A program made the position numbers and the translations under genes. The notes under the pieces were generated by a model. That model did no database searches. It saw only the letters and a list, made by a program, of their open reading frames with translations, and had not been told where the DNA came from. This document shows, piece by piece, positions 1-6,418 of a stretch of 64,000 bases of DNA (the first letter of the stretch is position 1; every line of letters begins with the position of its first letter). This DNA comes from Rhodocaloribacter litoris (lineage in GTDB: Bacteria > Bacteroidota > Rhodothermia > Rhodothermales > ISCAR-4553), in contig NZ_CP076718.1 in assembly GCF_011682235.2 (NCBI RefSeq), forward strand, positions 3,458,400 through 3,522,399. Reading direction: 5' to 3'.

Positions 1-14
1 CGGTGTGGTCGCGC

Positions 15-1976
15 TCAGGCCGTCACGGCCGGCTGCATCGCCGTGTCGATCTCCTTCAGGATATGCGCCGTGAAGTCGGCCAGCGACATGCTGCCCCGGT
101 CCCCCTCGCCGTGGCGGCGGACGGAGACGGTGCCCTGTTCTTCCTCGCGCGCGCCGACGATGAGCATGTACGGGATCTTCTGCACCTCGGCGCTGCGGAT
201 CTTGTAGCCCACCTTCTCGTTGCGCCGGTCCACCTCGACGCGGAGGCCGGCCTGGCGCAGCGCCTCGCCCACCTTTTCGGCGTAGGCTTCGAAGTCCTGG
301 CCGACGGGCAGCACGGCCACCTGCACCGGGGCCAGCCACGTCGGGAAGTTGCCGCCGGTGTGCTCGATCAGCACGCCGATGAAGCGTTCGAGCGAGCCGA
401 AGGGTGCGCGGTGGATCATCACCGGGCGGTGTTTCTGGTTGTCCTCGCCCACGTACCAGAGGTCGAACCGCTCGGGGAGGTTGTAGTCGAGCTGGACGGT
501 GCCGAGCTGCCATTCGCGGCCCAGGGCGTCCTTCACCATGAAATCGAGCTTGGGGCCGTAGAAGGCGGCCTCGCCGGGCACCTCCACGGCGTCGAGGCCC
601 ATCTCGGCCGCCGCCTCGCGGATGGCCTGCTCGGCGCGGTCCCAGGCGGCCGGGTCGCCGATGTACTTTTCTTGGTTGGCGGGATCGCGCAGGGAGATCT
701 GCGCCTTGAAGTCGTCGAACCCCAGGGCGCCGAAGACGAACAGCGTCAGGTCGATGACGTTCTTGAACTCGTCCTTGACCTGTTCGGGGGTGCAGAAGAT
801 GTGGGCGTCGTCCTGCGTGAAGCCGCGCACGCGGGTCAGCCCACCCAGCTCGCCGGACTGTTCGTAGCGGTAGACCGTGCCGAACTCGGCGTACCGGATG
901 GGCAGCTCGCGGTACGAATGCGGCCGGTCCGCATAGATCATGACGTGGTGCGGGCAGTTCATCGGCTTGAGGAGGTAGCCCTCTTCCCGCTCCGCATCCT
1001 CGAGCATGGGGGGGAACTGGCTCTCCTTGTAGTACGGGTAGTGCCCGCTGGTGCGATACAGCTCCAGGCGACCGATGTGCGGGGTCACGACCGGCTCGTA
1101 GCCGCGCCGGAGCTGTTCGCGCTTGAGGAACTCGGCCAGCGTATCGCGCAGCGTGGCGCCGCGCGGGAGCCACAGCGGCAGGCCCGGCCCCACCTTCGGG
1201 TTGAAGGTGAACAGCTCCAGCTCCCGGCCCAGCTTTCGATGGTCGCGTTGCCGGGCCAGCTCGAGCCGCTCCAGGTACTCGTCCAGTTCCTTCTTCTTCG
1301 GGAAGCTGATGCCGTAGATGCGTGTCAGCTGCGGGCGTTTCTCGTCCCCGCGCCAGTACGCCCCGGCGATGTTGAGCAGCTTGGGGTACTTGATGACGCC
1401 GGTCGAGGGGACGTGCGGGCCCCGGCAGAGGTCGGTGAAGTTGCCCTGGGTGTAGAAGGTGATGGTGCCGTCCTCCAGCTCCTCGATCAGCTCGAGCTTG
1501 TACTCGTCTCCCTTTTTCCGGTAGTAGGCCAGGGCTTCTGCTTTCGAGACGGGTCGCCGTTCGTAGGGCACGTCGCGCCGGGCCAGCTCCACCATCTTTT
1601 CCTCGATGCGTTCGAGGTCCTCCGGGCCGATCTTGCGCCCGCCGAGGTCGACGTCGTAGTAGAAGCCGTGTTCGATGGGCGGGCCGATGCCGAACTTGAC
1701 GCCGGGATAGAGGGCTTCGAGGGCCTCGGCCATCAGGTGGGCCGTCGAGTGCCAGTAGGTGGCTTTGCCCTCGGGGTCGTTCCAGGTGTAGATCCGGACG
1801 TGTGCGTCCTCCTCGATGGGACGGCTCAGGTCGCGCACCTCCCCGTCGACGCCGATGGACAGGGCGGCGCGGGCCAGTCCCGGCGAAATGCTCTCGGCCA
1901 CCTCGCGGCCGGTGACGCCCCGGGGGTATTCACGGGTGGATCCGTCGGGAAACGTGAGTCGGATGGTGTCGGGCAT
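15..1976 (-). CDS. thrS: Threonyl-tRNA synthetase
   Basis: Charges tRNA-Thr with threonine in the cytoplasm. The 653-residue product has the family's usual length and layout: a TGS domain (about 1-62), an editing domain with the HxxxH pair H76/H80, a class II core with zinc-ligand context MNCPHH, and motif 3 ([11 protein letters not shown]) before the C-terminal anticodon-binding domain. I chose the ATG at 1976 (MPDTIRLTF), which begins the TGS domain. An in-frame extension to 2147 would read through a transcription terminator and adds 57 residues of no family similarity. The leader upstream carries a Thr-rich peptide and a terminator, so expression is probably attenuated by charged tRNA-Thr. 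Family identity is certain; the regulation is inferred. Confidence 0.98.
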
Positions 1977-2010
1977 GTTCGGGGTGGGCTTGCGGTTGGT
2001 GACGACGCAC

Positions 2011-2044
2011 AAAAAAACGCCCCATCGTGCCGGCGACGGGGCGT
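2011..2044 (-). terminator. Intrinsic terminator in the thrS leader (probable attenuator)
   Basis: Read on the minus strand, a 6-bp G+C stem (CGCCCC with GGGGCG, positions 2043-2038 and 2023-2018) continues after one mismatch into three more pairs, has a short loop, and is followed directly by seven T. It ends 35 nt before the thrS start codon. No minus-strand gene lies upstream that it could terminate, because the neighbouring gene at 2303 is on the plus strand. It therefore acts, if at all, on the thrS leader transcript. Confidence 0.8.
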
Positions 2045-2065
2045 TCTTTCGCCTCCGCACGCGGC

Positions 2066-2104
2066 TCAGCGGGGCTGTGTCGTCGTGTCGGTCGTCCGGT
2101 TCAT
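2066..2104 (-). CDS. Threonine-rich leader peptide (12 aa)
   Basis: A minus-strand ATG at 2104 opens a 12-codon frame, [12 protein letters not shown], then TGA. Five of the twelve codons are Thr, arranged TT-D-TTT. It ends 22 nt before the terminator stem in the thrS leader. This is the textbook arrangement of ribosome-mediated attenuation (compare thrL of Escherichia coli, or pheM ahead of pheST). No good ribosome-binding site is visible; translation may instead be coupled to the small frame that ends at 2101, whose TGA overlaps this ATG as ATGA. Translation has not been shown. Confidence 0.65.
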
Positions 2105-2160
2105 GGTCGTTGTCGGAGGGCGGCAGCGGATGACACGCAGGGTTCACGGGCGGGTTTCAT
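2101..2160 (-). CDS. Possible small upstream ORF in the thrS leader (19 aa)
   Basis: A minus-strand ATG at 2160 gives [19 protein letters not shown] and stops at TGA 2103-2101. The stop overlaps the ATG of the Thr-rich leader peptide by four bases (ATGA). It has no threonine enrichment. It may only be chance, but the overlap would let ribosomes reinitiate on the leader peptide. No family is recognisable. Confidence 0.3.
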
Positions 2161-2181
2161 CCGGGCGCACACCGTCACCGG

Positions 2182-2219
2182 CAATTTACACCCGTCCTGA
2201 AGGTGAAACTGCAAAAAAA
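2182..2219 (-). promoter_or_regulatory. Candidate thrS promoter
   Basis: On the minus strand TTTTTTTG (2219-2212) is followed 23 nt later by TAAATTG (2188-2182). This resembles the Bacteroidota pair TTTG / TAnnTTTG, with the -7 box one base short. Initiation about 7 nt downstream would give a leader near 195 nt containing both small frames and the terminator. The sequence match is only approximate. Confidence 0.35.
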
Positions 2220-2302
2220 CGAGGTATTCCCGGGTTCGCTTAAACGAAACGCCGCGACGGACGATCACAACGAAAAGGCCATTCAACCCGAGCAAGATCC
2301 GC

Positions 2303-2824
2303 GTGGAGACAACCGGAAGCCTGCGTTCGCTGCACCTGCGCTATGCCCCGCACCTCAAGCCGTGGGTAGGCACCCTCTTTCTGGCACCGTGGTGCCTCTA
2401 TTTCGTCCTCTCCTACGGCACCTACACATTCATGGACACTGTGGCCCTCATCTTCCACGAGGCCGGTCACGTGTTCTTTGCCCCCTTCGGCCCGTTTCTC
2501 CGCATCGCCGGGGGGACGCTGATGCAGGTGCTGCTGCCGCTCTTCCTGGTGTGGAACTTCCGGCGCCAGGCATACCGGTTCGGGGTGCAGGCCATGCTGG
2601 TCTGGCTGGGGCACAACCTGCTCAACGTCAGTGTCTATGCGGCCGACGCGCAGGTGCGGCAACTCCCCCTGCTCGGTGGCGACCGCGCCGTGCACGACTG
2701 GGCCTACCTGTTGGGTGAACTGGGCCTGCTTCCCTATGCCCAGGCCGTCGGCAGCCTCTTTTTCGCGCTGGCTCTGCTCGTCTTCAGCCTGGCGCTCGTG
2801 CTGCCCCGCTTCTCGGTGGATTGA
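2303..2824 (+). CDS. Membrane protein with HExxH motif
   Basis: A 173-residue membrane protein, with about four hydrophobic segments. It contains FHEAGHVFFAPFG near residues 51-63, an HExxH zinc-binding motif at the edge of a hydrophobic segment, as in site-2 protease-like (M50) enzymes. A second GHNLLN motif follows near residue 107. The canonical M50 NPDG motif is not visible, so calling it a protease is tentative. The first codon of the open frame is GTG at 2303, and no better ATG precedes the first membrane segment. It stands alone, divergent from thrS. It could equally be a non-peptidase membrane protein of an uncharacterised family. Confidence 0.75.
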   Translation: METTGSLRSLHLRYAPHLKPWVGTLFLAPWCLYFVLSYGTYTFMDTVALIFHEAGHVFFAPFGPFLRIAGGTLMQVLLPLFLVWNFRRQAYRFGVQAMLVWLGHNLLNVSVYAADAQVRQLPLLGGDRAVHDWAYLLGELGLLPYAQAVGSLFFALALLVFSLALVLPRFSVD

Positions 2825-2841
2825 GCCGGGGCTGGTGGCGC

Positions 2842-2880
2842 AAAAAAAGAGCGTGCCGTCCGCTCGGGCGGGCAGCACGC
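2842..2880 (-). terminator. Rho-independent terminator, minus strand
   Basis: Inverted repeat with a perfect outer stem GCGTGC/GCACGC (2880-2875 and 2856-2851) and a G+C-rich interior. On the minus strand it is followed by CT and then seven T (2848-2842). It lies about 90 nt beyond the stop codon of the small minus-strand gene at 2970 and faces the end of the plus-strand gene ending at 2824. Confidence 0.7.
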
Positions 2881-2969
2881 TTCGTTGTGGAAGCCGGGGT
2901 CGTGGTGGCATGGCACATCGGGGGTGATGACTCCAAGGCGAGTGCACCCCGGCAAAGTACCGCACCGCT

Positions 2970-3179
2970 TCAATCACAGCGGACGATCTCGACCGTCTCC
3001 AGGTCGTTGCTCAGAGCCACCGACCCGCGGTCGCGCAACTCTTCGAGCAGGGTGCGGCGCGAGCGCATGTCGGTGCGCTTGTCGAGCTTGAGCCGGCAGA
3101 GCGCGGCACTCAGAGCCACCCAGGGATTCGTGATCGGGAGCACCAGTTGTTTCTGCGGTATGTGAACTTCGTACAGCAT
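2970..3179 (-). CDS. Small hypothetical protein (69 aa)
   Basis: An open frame from ATG 3179 with no recognised family. The product is mixed-charge, with a basic middle (KLDKRTDMRSRRTLLEEL) and no signal peptide or membrane segment. Support for a real gene is positional: it fills an otherwise empty gap, has the same orientation as the dehydrogenase upstream (96 bp away), and is followed by a good terminator. The first third is hydrophobic and could pack as a small domain. Function unknown. Confidence 0.5.
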   Translation of the reverse strand: MLYEVHIPQKQLVLPITNPWVALSAALCRLKLDKRTDMRSRRTLLEELRDRGSVALSNDLETVEIVRCD

Positions 3180-3275
3180 GGCAGGCGTGAAGGAGAGGTT
3201 CGTCGAAATGGTGTAAGGAGGTTCGGACGGACGCCCACCCTGCTTTCAGCTTGCCGGTCGAAAAGCGCCTGCGGC

Positions 3276-4043
3276 TCATCGGGGGGCCATGCGGATGGCG
3301 CCGTCGAGGCGGATGACCTCGCCGTTGAGCATCACGTTCTCGATGATGTGCCGGACGAGGAAAGCATACTCGGCCGGGCGGCCCAGGCGCGGCGGAAAGG
3401 GGACCTGCTGGCTGAGGGAAGCCTTGACCTCTTCCGGCATGCCGGCCACCATCGGGGTTTCGAAGACGCCCGGCGCGATGGTCATGACCCGGATTCCGTG
3501 CCGGGCCAGGTCGCGGGCCAGCGGCAACGTCATCCCGACGACGCCCCCCTTCGAGGCCGCGTAGGCCACCTGCCCGATCTGACCGTCGAAGGCGGCCACC
3601 GAGGCCGTGTTGACGACCACGCCCCGCTCGCCCTCTTCGCTCGGGGTGTTCTCGGCCATGACGACGGCGGCCAGCCGGATCACATTGAACGTGCCGAGGA
3701 GGTTGATCCGGACGACGCGGGCGAAGCTTTCGAGGTCGTGTGGGCCGTCTTTGCCCAGGGTTCGCCGGGCGAGGACGATGCCGGCGCAGTTGACCACGCC
3801 GTGAAGGGCGCCGAAACGTTCGCGGGCGGCGTCGAGGGCCGCCCGGACGCTGTCCTCTTCGGTCACGTCCGTTTCGACGAAGTGGGCGCGTTCGCCCAGC
3901 GCGGTGGCGCGTTCCGTCCCCGCCGCCGCGTTCACCTCGGCGATGACGACGTTGGCCCCGGCTTCGATGAGCTGTTCCGCGGTGGCGGCCCCGAGGCCGG
4001 AGCCGCCGCCGGTCACGAGGAAGGTATGCCCGGGTATCTGCAT
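3276..4043 (-). CDS. SDR family dehydrogenase, 3-hydroxyacyl-CoA dehydrogenase type II-like
   Basis: A 255-residue classical short-chain dehydrogenase. The cofactor motif TGGGSGLG spans residues 11-18, NCAG follows, the catalytic Ser is in NTASVAA, and the YxxxK pair is in VAYAASKGG. Several features match the 17-beta-hydroxysteroid dehydrogenase type 10 / 3-hydroxy-2-methylbutyryl-CoA dehydrogenase branch: the N-terminal VTGGGSGLG, the long segment before NTASVAAF, and the ending [12 protein letters not shown]. It is likely NAD-dependent in beta-oxidation or isoleucine degradation. It is followed 96 bp on by a small ORF and preceded 130 bp upstream by an alcohol dehydrogenase. The substrate is inferred from the family. 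Confidence 0.9.
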
Positions 4044-4172
4044 GACAGGCCCTCACGTTGGGTTCGAAAGGGAAAAAGCGCTTTTCCGCGCGTGCCGGTG
4101 AAGGTACGACGCCCCGGTGTGAAGGCGCGGCGAAAACGGCTTTTGCCACCGGGCCCGGCGCGTGCCGTCCCC

Positions 4173-5201
4173 TCAGGAGACGACCAGCACCTTGGCACCG
4201 CGGATCTTCTGCGTCTTCAACTCGAGCAGGGCCCGGTTGGCTGCTTCGAGCGGGTAGGTTTGCACGTCCGGCCGGAGGGGCACGCCAGCGGCCAGGGCCA
4301 GGAACTCGCGCACGTCGCGGCGGGTGACGTTGGCCACGCTCTTGATCTCGCGCTCCATCCACAGGTGTTTCGCATAGTCGAGGCGCAGGAGCTCCTTGCG
4401 GTCTGTGTCTTCCTTGCGGATGGCGTTGACGACCAGGCGCCCGCCCGGCTTGAGGTTCTTCAGGGCTTCGACGACGGGCTTCCAGGCCGGGGTGGTGTCG
4501 ATGACGGCGTCGAGCGGTTCGGGGGCTTCGTCGGCCGTATCTCCGGCCCAGACGGCGCCGAGCTCGCGGGCGAAAGCGCGTTCGGTGGGGCTGCGGGCGA
4601 AGACGTGGACACGGGTGTTCGGGAAGCGGTGTCGCACCATCTTCAGCACCAGATGGCCCGATCCGCCGAAGCCGGTCAGGCCGAGCGCCTGCCCGTCCTG
4701 CACCCCGGTGAGGCGGAGCGAACGGTAGCCGATGGCGCCGGCGCACAGGTGCGGCGCGGCCTCGGCGTCGGTGAAGGCATCCGGGATCGGATGGACGAAC
4801 GCCGCCGGCGCTTTCATGTACTCGGCATAGCCGCCGTGCACGTCGCGGCCGGTGGCGCGGAAAGCCGGGCACAGGTTTTCCTGGCCGGACCGGCAGAAGG
4901 GACAGGTGCCGCAGGCCGCGTAGATCCAGGCCACTCCCACCCGGTCACCTTCGTGCACGTCGCTTACGCCCGGACCGCACGCCACCACGCGGCCGACGAC
5001 CTGATGCCCCGGCACGACCGGCAGTTTCGGCGGGGGCGTCCGTCCTTCGATCTCGTCGAGTTCGGTGTGGCAGACCCCGCACGCCGAGACGCGGATCAGT
5101 ACCTCGCCCTCGCCGGGATCGGGAACGGGCAGTTCGGCCGGTCGGAGCGGCTCCGGATCGTCCGGCAGCCGCGTGATCCGGTCGAGTAGCATCGCTTTCA
5201 T
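4173..5201 (-). CDS. Zinc-dependent alcohol dehydrogenase
   Basis: A 342-residue medium-chain dehydrogenase. Catalytic zinc ligands are C44 (GVCHTE) and H66 (PGHQ). The structural zinc site is C97, C100, C103, C111 (CGTCPFC...C). A Rossmann region with GFGGSGHLVLK lies near 195-205. It resembles the bacterial AdhA group with PVVPGHQVVGRV. It probably oxidises primary or allylic alcohols or reduces aldehydes with NAD(P). The gene reads in the same direction as the SDR gene 130 bp downstream; between them is an AT-flanked palindrome (about 4069-4085). Natural substrate unknown. Confidence 0.93.
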   Translation of the reverse strand: MKAMLLDRITRLPDDPEPLRPAELPVPDPGEGEVLIRVSACGVCHTELDEIEGRTPPPKLPVVPGHQVVGRVVACGPGVSDVHEGDRVGVAWIYAACGTCPFCRSGQENLCPAFRATGRDVHGGYAEYMKAPAAFVHPIPDAFTDAEAAPHLCAGAIGYRSLRLTGVQDGQALGLTGFGGSGHLVLKMVRHRFPNTRVHVFARSPTERAFARELGAVWAGDTADEAPEPLDAVIDTTPAWKPVVEALKNLKPGGRLVVNAIRKEDTDRKELLRLDYAKHLWMEREIKSVANVTRRDVREFLALAAGVPLRPDVQTYPLEAANRALLELKTQKIRGAKVLVVS

Positions 5202-5264
5202 AGGTCCACATTACTGGGCTTACAGGTTGTACGACGGGTCGGGTCAGGGGGCTTCGCCGCTCCG

Positions 5265-5732
5265 CTACGCCCCTCCGGCCTGGTCGGCCGCGCGTTTCCA
5301 CATGAGCAGGACGAGCCAGAGGACGAAAACGCGGAAGGCCAGGGGCAGCGTCTCCGGCAGGTCGGCCAGGGCGCGGCGCGAGAAGGGACGGGCCGGGCGG
5401 ATGGATCCCACGGGCCGGTCGTTTTGGCAGAGCACATACCGCCGGCTTGCCCATGAAGCGGGCCGGAGCACGTACCGCTCGCCCGCAAAGTCGATCTCGA
5501 AACGGCGGCGGAAAGCGCTGGGCTTCTCGGCGGAAGCCACCACCCTGTCGTCACACGCGAGGAGGAAACGCCCGCCGAGGAGTTTTTCCCGGGTCACCGT
5601 GTAGGCGGCTTCTTCGAGGAGGAGGTGCCCGGCTTCGCGGAACCAGGAGCGCTCGGTGACGGCTACGGGCGTCTCGTCGTCGAAGATCCGGTAGTTCCAC
5701 GAGAACGGGCCGAGGGGGCGGGCATGGAGCAT
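5265..5732 (-). CDS. Hypothetical protein with C-terminal membrane segment
   Basis: A 155-residue protein that I cannot assign to a named family with confidence. The first 110 residues are beta-rich with repeated aromatic/basic stretches, loosely like LURP-one/Tubby C-terminal folds. They are followed by one hydrophobic segment (LAFRVFVLWLVLLMWK, about 129-145) and a short polar tail. It is divergent from queE, with about 45 bp between start codons, and 63 bp upstream of the alcohol dehydrogenase on the same strand. Probably a tail-anchored membrane protein; function unknown. Confidence 0.7.
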   Translation of the reverse strand: MLHARPLGPFSWNYRIFDDETPVAVTERSWFREAGHLLLEEAAYTVTREKLLGGRFLLACDDRVVASAEKPSAFRRRFEIDFAGERYVLRPASWASRRYVLCQNDRPVGSIRPARPFSRRALADLPETLPLAFRVFVLWLVLLMWKRAADQAGGA

Positions 5733-5776
5733 AGACGGAGGATGTGGCGTTTATGCCGGGCAGGAGGCATGGCGGG

Positions 5777-6418
5777 ATGAGCTACTCGGTCAAGGAAATA
5801 TACTACACGCTGCAGGGAGAAGGGGCGCAGACGGGGCGTCCGGCCGTCTTTCTCCGCTTTGCGGGGTGCAACCTGTGGACGGGGCGGGAGGCGGACCGCG
5901 CCACGGCCGTCTGCCGGTTCTGTGACACGGACTTCGTGGGCACCGACGGGCCGGGGGGCGGCAAGTACCGGACGCCGCAGGCGCTGGCCCGCGCCGTGGC
6001 GGCGTGCTGGCCCGGTCCTCGCGACGGGCACGACCGCCCCTACGTCGTCTGCACCGGTGGCGAGCCCCTGCTCCAGCTCGACGCGCCGCTCGTGGCGGCT
6101 CTCCACGCCGAGGGCTTCGAAGTGGCCGTCGAGACGAACGGAACGCGCCCCGCCCCGCCCGGCCTCGACTGGATCTGCGTCAGTCCCAAAGCCGGCGCCG
6201 ACCTGGTCCTCACCCGCGGCGACGAGCTGAAACTGGTTTATCCCCAGCCCGGCGCTCCGCCCGAGCGCTTTCGTCACCTCGCCTTCAAGCACTTCTTCCT
6301 CCAGCCCATGGATGGGCCGGACGTGGCGGAGAACACCCGCCGCGCCCTGCAGTATTGCCTCGAACACCCGCCCTGGCGGCTCAGCCTGCAGACACACAAG
6401 CTGCTGGCCATCCCCTGA
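5777..6418 (+). CDS. queE: 7-carboxy-7-deazaguanine synthase
   Basis: A radical SAM enzyme making 7-carboxy-7-deazaguanine for queuosine or other 7-deazapurines. The product is 213 residues. The iron-sulfur cysteines are C31, C46 and C49, an expanded CX14CX2C motif as seen in some QueE branches instead of CX3CX2C. The opening [14 protein letters not shown] and the motif CTGGEPLLQ are diagnostic. I chose the ATG at 5777 because an AGGAG-like site lies 10-14 nt upstream; the open frame extends to a GTG at 5744 with no family similarity. No other queuosine gene is adjacent. Confidence 0.95.

Follow-up and report, generated by a model that had tools for sequence, protein, structure and literature searches.

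The window analysed here is a 64,000-nt stretch of the Rhodocaloribacter litoris genome (NZ_CP076718.1, assembly GCF_011682235.2, positions 3,458,400–3,522,399; genome label G000, family f1). The threonyl-tRNA synthetase (ThrRS) gene thrS, which encodes 653 amino acids and for which full-length homologues were found, is located on the minus strand at 15–1976. Ahead of it on the same strand lies a short open reading frame at 2066–2104, the proposed thrL, whose codons read from 2104 to 2066 are ATG AAC CGG ACG ACC GAC ACG ACG ACA CAG CCC CGC TGA. Direct reading confirms the 12-codon frame with five threonine codons described in the initial annotation; these are arranged as a pair at codons 4–5 (ACG ACC, 2090–2095) and a triplet at codons 7–9 (ACG ACG ACA, 2078–2086). 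Among the 327 ATG frames of 8–30 codons on both strands of the window, the leader alone contains at least five threonines within six consecutive codons.

An intrinsic terminator separates the leader from thrS (2011–2047, minus strand). It consists of AACGCCCCGTCG-CCGGCA-CGATGGGGCGTT followed by T, with the hairpin at 2047–2014 and seven T residues at 2017–2011, and the hairpin core folds with a calculated energy of -23.6 kcal/mol. The GC-rich hairpin begins 18–20 nt after the leader stop codon, the stem AACG starting at 20 nt, and the thrS ATG at 1976 is 34 nt past the T run; the strong hairpin with its seven T had been annotated at this place, and the spacings given for it (22 nt from the frame and 35 nt to thrS) were right to within 1–2 nt. 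Because the neighbouring gene (2303–2824, plus strand) is divergent and no tRNA genes were found within the 64-kb window, the terminator can serve only the leader, in agreement with the earlier claim that it is available to no other minus-strand gene. The divergent gene encodes a product of 173 residues whose HEAGH motif hints at a membrane zinc peptidase-like protein.

No Shine-Dalgarno sequence was found ahead of the leader ATG, a consensus promoter scan of the thrS leader region returned none, and plasmid blastn gave no match. An N-terminal extension of thrS reading across the terminator (a frame of 710 residues) was considered and ruled out: in G001, the only other f1 genome compared, a stop codon interrupts the corresponding frame, and the G001 ThrRS starts from the same methionine.

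Mutually exclusive folds and ribosome position

The initial annotation had not resolved an antiterminator and had proposed folding the leader for alternative structures; a structure that competes with the terminator was found in both f1 genomes. An antiterminator search limited to the region from the stop codon to segment 3 gave a partial answer; when the last leader codons were added, a composite hairpin was obtained. Its 5' arm (segment 2, 2050–2075, minus strand) comprises GCCCCG from the last codons, the stop codon and CCGCGTGCGGAGGCG, and its 3' arm (2019–2043, minus strand) covers segments 3 and 4, the two arms of the terminator. Within this hairpin, GCCCCG at the end of the leader is matched to the terminator 3' arm, and the sequence beyond the stop codon to the 5' arm and the loop. 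The pairing of 2075–2050 with 2043–2019, which G001 has in common with R. litoris, is mutually exclusive with the terminator.

In the modelled folds of the f1 pair, the preferred structure varies with where the ribosome is placed. The ribosome was represented by a 13-nt footprint counted from the start of the A-site codon. Placed at codon 4 or 5, it leaves the antiterminator as the minimum-energy fold, and terminator pairing is back from codon 7 on; in both f1 genomes a ribosome at the first threonine pair yields one long imperfect hairpin as the fold of lowest energy. Terminator pairing in R. litoris is 0.20 with the ribosome at the first pair versus 0.89 at the stop codon, values that are sensitive to the chosen 3' end, and in G001 it is 0.02 versus 0.99. 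When no ribosome is present, terminator pairing is 0.85 and 0.96, respectively. Shuffled upstream stretches were equally low in terminator pairing in 5 of 600 cases for R. litoris and 34 of 600 for G001. The margin in R. litoris is narrow, as pairing of an AAAG run with three more T brings the terminator back (0.90 at equilibrium); antitermination there would therefore rest on the antiterminator forming first, which is a kinetic argument.

Codons 7–9 are further possible stall sites. With the ribosome stalled there, nascent segment 3 is sequestered at about 0.7, but the full antiterminator is lost and the full-length fold prefers the terminator. The modelled folds point to the first threonine pair (codons 4–5), rather than the whole TT-D-TTT run, as the best-placed sensor. 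Folded without constraint, the leader reaches a z-score of only -1.9, with the terminator visible and the switch absent.

Conservation of the leader among Rhodothermales

ThrRS matches were obtained in 116 of 119 related genomes (the order comprises 114 genomes in all), and the stretch before thrS was read in 90 of these genomes and in further regions. G001, whose ThrRS is 84% identical to that of R. litoris, has MRRRTTDPQTTMPR with its stop codon, a terminator and thrS in that order; its leader at the matching place is also given as M(LM)RRRTTDPQTTMPR plus stop, of the RTTD..TT type that contains the conserved R-T-T-D pair. In f6, f7 and five f13 genera the order is tRNA-Val(GAC), a short ORF with a T-R-T core, a terminator and thrS. 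The leader peptides are MNLRSYFFTRTCTTHGVPCYHR in f7, MLFPSDSAVATRTWTPGGVRIVGSAPGRG in f6, and MFRLPVYIQRFTRTPNGAGDACA, MFHLPTYIRSLTRTPDTAGQRCR, MFYLPPYIRSLMRTPNVAGA, MGVLLTVQATTRTPVFGPAYPCP (twice), MLALPTLFATTRTPIFGGACM and MRCSWTRTPNAAGARGG in f13; the leader of one genome, G090, has a single threonine codon left. Of the 11 real leaders, 10 have TRT or RTT in an ATG frame, which dinucleotide shuffling of a leader spacer produces in at most 3.5% of cases, the value for R. litoris being 3.5% (160 nt before the terminator). The combined shuffle probability of 1e-21 is not to be taken at face value, since the motif was picked after the peptides had been seen. Two sister species (G060 and G099) share an identical 23-residue leader whose codons differ at four synonymous and zero non-synonymous places, which speaks for the leader being coding.

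Between the two f1 genomes the antiterminator differs by two compensatory pair changes, and paired cells make up 93% versus 37–57% for slid partners. The covariation is weak: 116 of 500 column shuffles reach the same value, which is not significant with two sequences. In 7 of the 11 leaders the post-stop segment is more complementary to the terminator 5' arm than shuffles are (p below 0.06), and over all 11 the Fisher p is 1.8e-5, a value that overstates independence because the leaders are kin. In f6, f7 and f13 the full-length equilibrium folds prefer the terminator at every ribosome position. Of the features that the initial annotation had proposed to examine for co-variation in an alignment of related leaders, the threonine codons and the terminator are kept in both members of f1, in f6, in f7 and in five f13 genera, and co-variation of the competing structure is weak in the f1 pair.

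Most Rhodothermales families gave no threonine leader before thrS (f2–f5, f9–f12, f14 and the Salinibacter-like f13). In f2, f4 and the Salinibacter-like f13 the tRNA is present, mostly together with a terminator, without such an ORF; in f3, f5, f9, f10, f12 and others neither the tRNA nor a leader ORF precedes thrS. The ThrRS tree did not decide between an ancestral leader with losses and more than one gain. Two further observations were made during the comparison. Several f5 genomes (L023, L028, L031, L032, L036 and L037) have no leader or terminator and share a near-palindrome before thrS, of the type AATACCNNGTATTTTCGA with TTATATATT after it, which may represent an operator and promoter. 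The ThrRS matches of G012, G032, G046, G053 and G067 (f12) and of G107 and G113 (f13) are split in two near query residue 328, with about 60–110 nt in open frame between the pieces, as if a short protein insertion were present.

The tRNA-Val(GAC) gene lies directly before thrS in seven families (f2, f4, f6, f7, f8, f13 and f14), and most of the loci L012, L014, L015, L029, L035, L042–L048 and L054–L083 carry it upstream of thrS. In f4 and the Salinibacter-like f13 the terminator comes immediately after the tRNA, and in R. litoris the matching tRNA-Val lies far from thrS, at C1:231580. This arrangement would suit a history in which the R. litoris terminator is a relic of a tRNA-Val terminator left behind when the tRNA moved away, with thrS expressed by constitutive read-through and the threonine-rich frame incidental. 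We regard this, the main alternative, as unlikely, since it leaves unexplained the conserved threonine frame, the synonymous-only differences between the sister species and the antiterminator common to both f1 genomes; in the leader-bearing relatives that have the tRNA, moreover, the leader sits between the tRNA and the terminator. The tRNA-Val terminator may nevertheless be the evolutionary origin of the thrS terminator.

The T-R-T-P core common to several leaders with few threonine codons, and the single threonine of the G090 leader, could also point to a nascent-chain arrest peptide that senses, for example, translation inhibitors rather than the charging of tRNA-Thr. Such a function is highly improbable, as the f1 leaders are rich in threonine and have no T-R-T-P, and the regulated gene would be thrS itself, for which sensing through threonine codons is the simplest reading.

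Proposed attenuation of thrS and related systems

The arrangement of these elements, together with the modelled folds, makes it very probable that the thrS leader is a classical ribosome-mediated transcription attenuator that senses charged tRNA-Thr. As RNA polymerase transcribes the leader, a ribosome would follow closely and translate the short ORF. Under a shortage of charged tRNA-Thr, the ribosome would stall at the threonine codons, above all at the first pair, leaving segment 2 (the last leader codons, the stop codon and about 17 nt beyond) free to pair with the terminator arms as the long imperfect hairpin, and transcription would continue into thrS. With ample charged tRNA-Thr, the ribosome would reach the stop codon and cover segment 2, and the terminator would form; it would be expected to form too when the leader is not translated. 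From these features we infer that the leader is translated, that ribosomes stall on it and that thrS transcription changes in response. The initial annotation had likewise supposed that low charged tRNA-Thr stalls the ribosome and permits read-through into thrS. The leaders of relatives and the antiterminator support that attenuation reading, and the folding narrows its proposed sensor, the TT-D-TTT codons, to the first pair. Of the outcomes that the annotation had named as refuting, neither missing conservation among relatives nor the want of a competing structure was borne out.

A more specific proposal can be put forward tentatively, and we consider it somewhat less probable than its opposite: that this is a thrS attenuator specific to Rhodothermales, in which the last leader codons and the stop codon engage both terminator arms, only the first threonine pair is the true sensor, and several families carry tRNA-Val, leader peptide and synthetase on one transcript.

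The R. litoris genome also contains a textbook trp attenuator at L198:1204–1355 (C1, before trpE at 520589), with the leader peptide MQRTPVHTSPDARLWWWSPAQAVGRTGRYVP and its stop codon, including WWW, followed by a terminator. Soon after the Trp codons, the trpE leader repeats the sequence of the terminator 3' arm as an antiterminator (GCAGTGGGTC). Folding varies with ribosome position as expected: sequestration of the nascent terminator 5' arm is 1.00 when the ribosome sits at WWW, 0.11 when it is at the stop codon and 0.28 with no ribosome. This leader makes translation-coupled attenuation plausible in R. litoris independently of thrS. No leader of such kind was found in the 600 nt examined for the hisG, ilvB and aspartokinase genes of the same genome.

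For Rhodothermota, the leader described here would add a concrete case of translation-coupled attenuation with thrS as its target and trpE as a second in the same genome. If the proposal is true, transcription and translation are coupled closely enough in Rhodothermota for attenuation to operate. The relatives provide a comparative series in which one attenuator has been retained, relocated or lost within a single order and may have started from the tRNA-Val terminator.

Control of thrS by its own product is a further mechanism to be weighed, as happens in E. coli, where thrS is autoregulated through operator mimicry. Repression of the thrS mRNA by ThrRS through an anticodon-like leader hairpin in this fashion, with the terminator secondary, has that precedent in its favour and is very unlikely here, because no likeness to a pair of tRNA-Thr anticodon-like arms was noticed when the leader was folded and because a terminator with a conserved threonine frame is better matched by attenuation. 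Self-regulation of thrS in E. coli is mentioned in PMC2965389.

Like the proposed attenuator, the T-box found before thrS in Firmicutes links the charging of tRNA-Thr to thrS transcription, but it binds the tRNA directly and has no leader peptide; an Rfam cmscan of window positions 1–6000 (E up to 10) gave no T-box match. The gammaproteobacterial thrL of thrABC (Rfam RF00506, Thr_leader) resembles the R. litoris element in its threonine-rich short ORF, followed by an intrinsic terminator and a structure that competes with it. Gammaproteobacterial thrL differs in controlling biosynthesis genes and in sensing isoleucine as well. The R. litoris leader is not a member of RF00506 by sequence, its score of 20.9 bits with the covariance model (E 1.8), the sole Rfam match, being below the gathering threshold of 55.

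Attenuation by leader peptides has been described in the wider group: it has been suggested for amino acid biosynthesis operons in Flavobacterium psychrophilum (PMC9723704), and short leader ORFs are reported in B. thetaiotaomicron (PMC7366714). These Bacteroidetes cases differ in that they involve biosynthesis operons or unnamed leaders, and thrS is mentioned in neither paper. The initial annotation knew of no described threonine leader on thrS in Rhodothermota; no paper on Rhodothermus or Salinibacter attenuators was found in the open-access literature, but a thrS leader as such has a precedent in Streptomyces lividans TK24, where the thrL leader peptide MKRVRPFLETTPGFVPAR lies directly before thrS (PMC8079986). 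The S. lividans thrL resembles the R. litoris leader in having threonine codons directly upstream of thrS, and differs in having two of them, in being leaderless and, according to the paper, in having no clear intrinsic terminator (PMC8079986). Leader-peptide attenuators are known for other synthetase genes, namely trpS and leuS of Streptomyces and gammaproteobacterial pheST (PMC1262725). Like the proposed thrL, pheM of pheST is a leader-peptide attenuator of an aminoacyl-tRNA synthetase operating through the enzyme's own amino acid; pheM has phenylalanine codons and belongs to another phylum, and the likeness claimed is one of principle and not of sequence. The mechanism proposed for R. litoris is ordinary ribosome-mediated attenuation, following the textbook principle at a rarely reported target, thrS.
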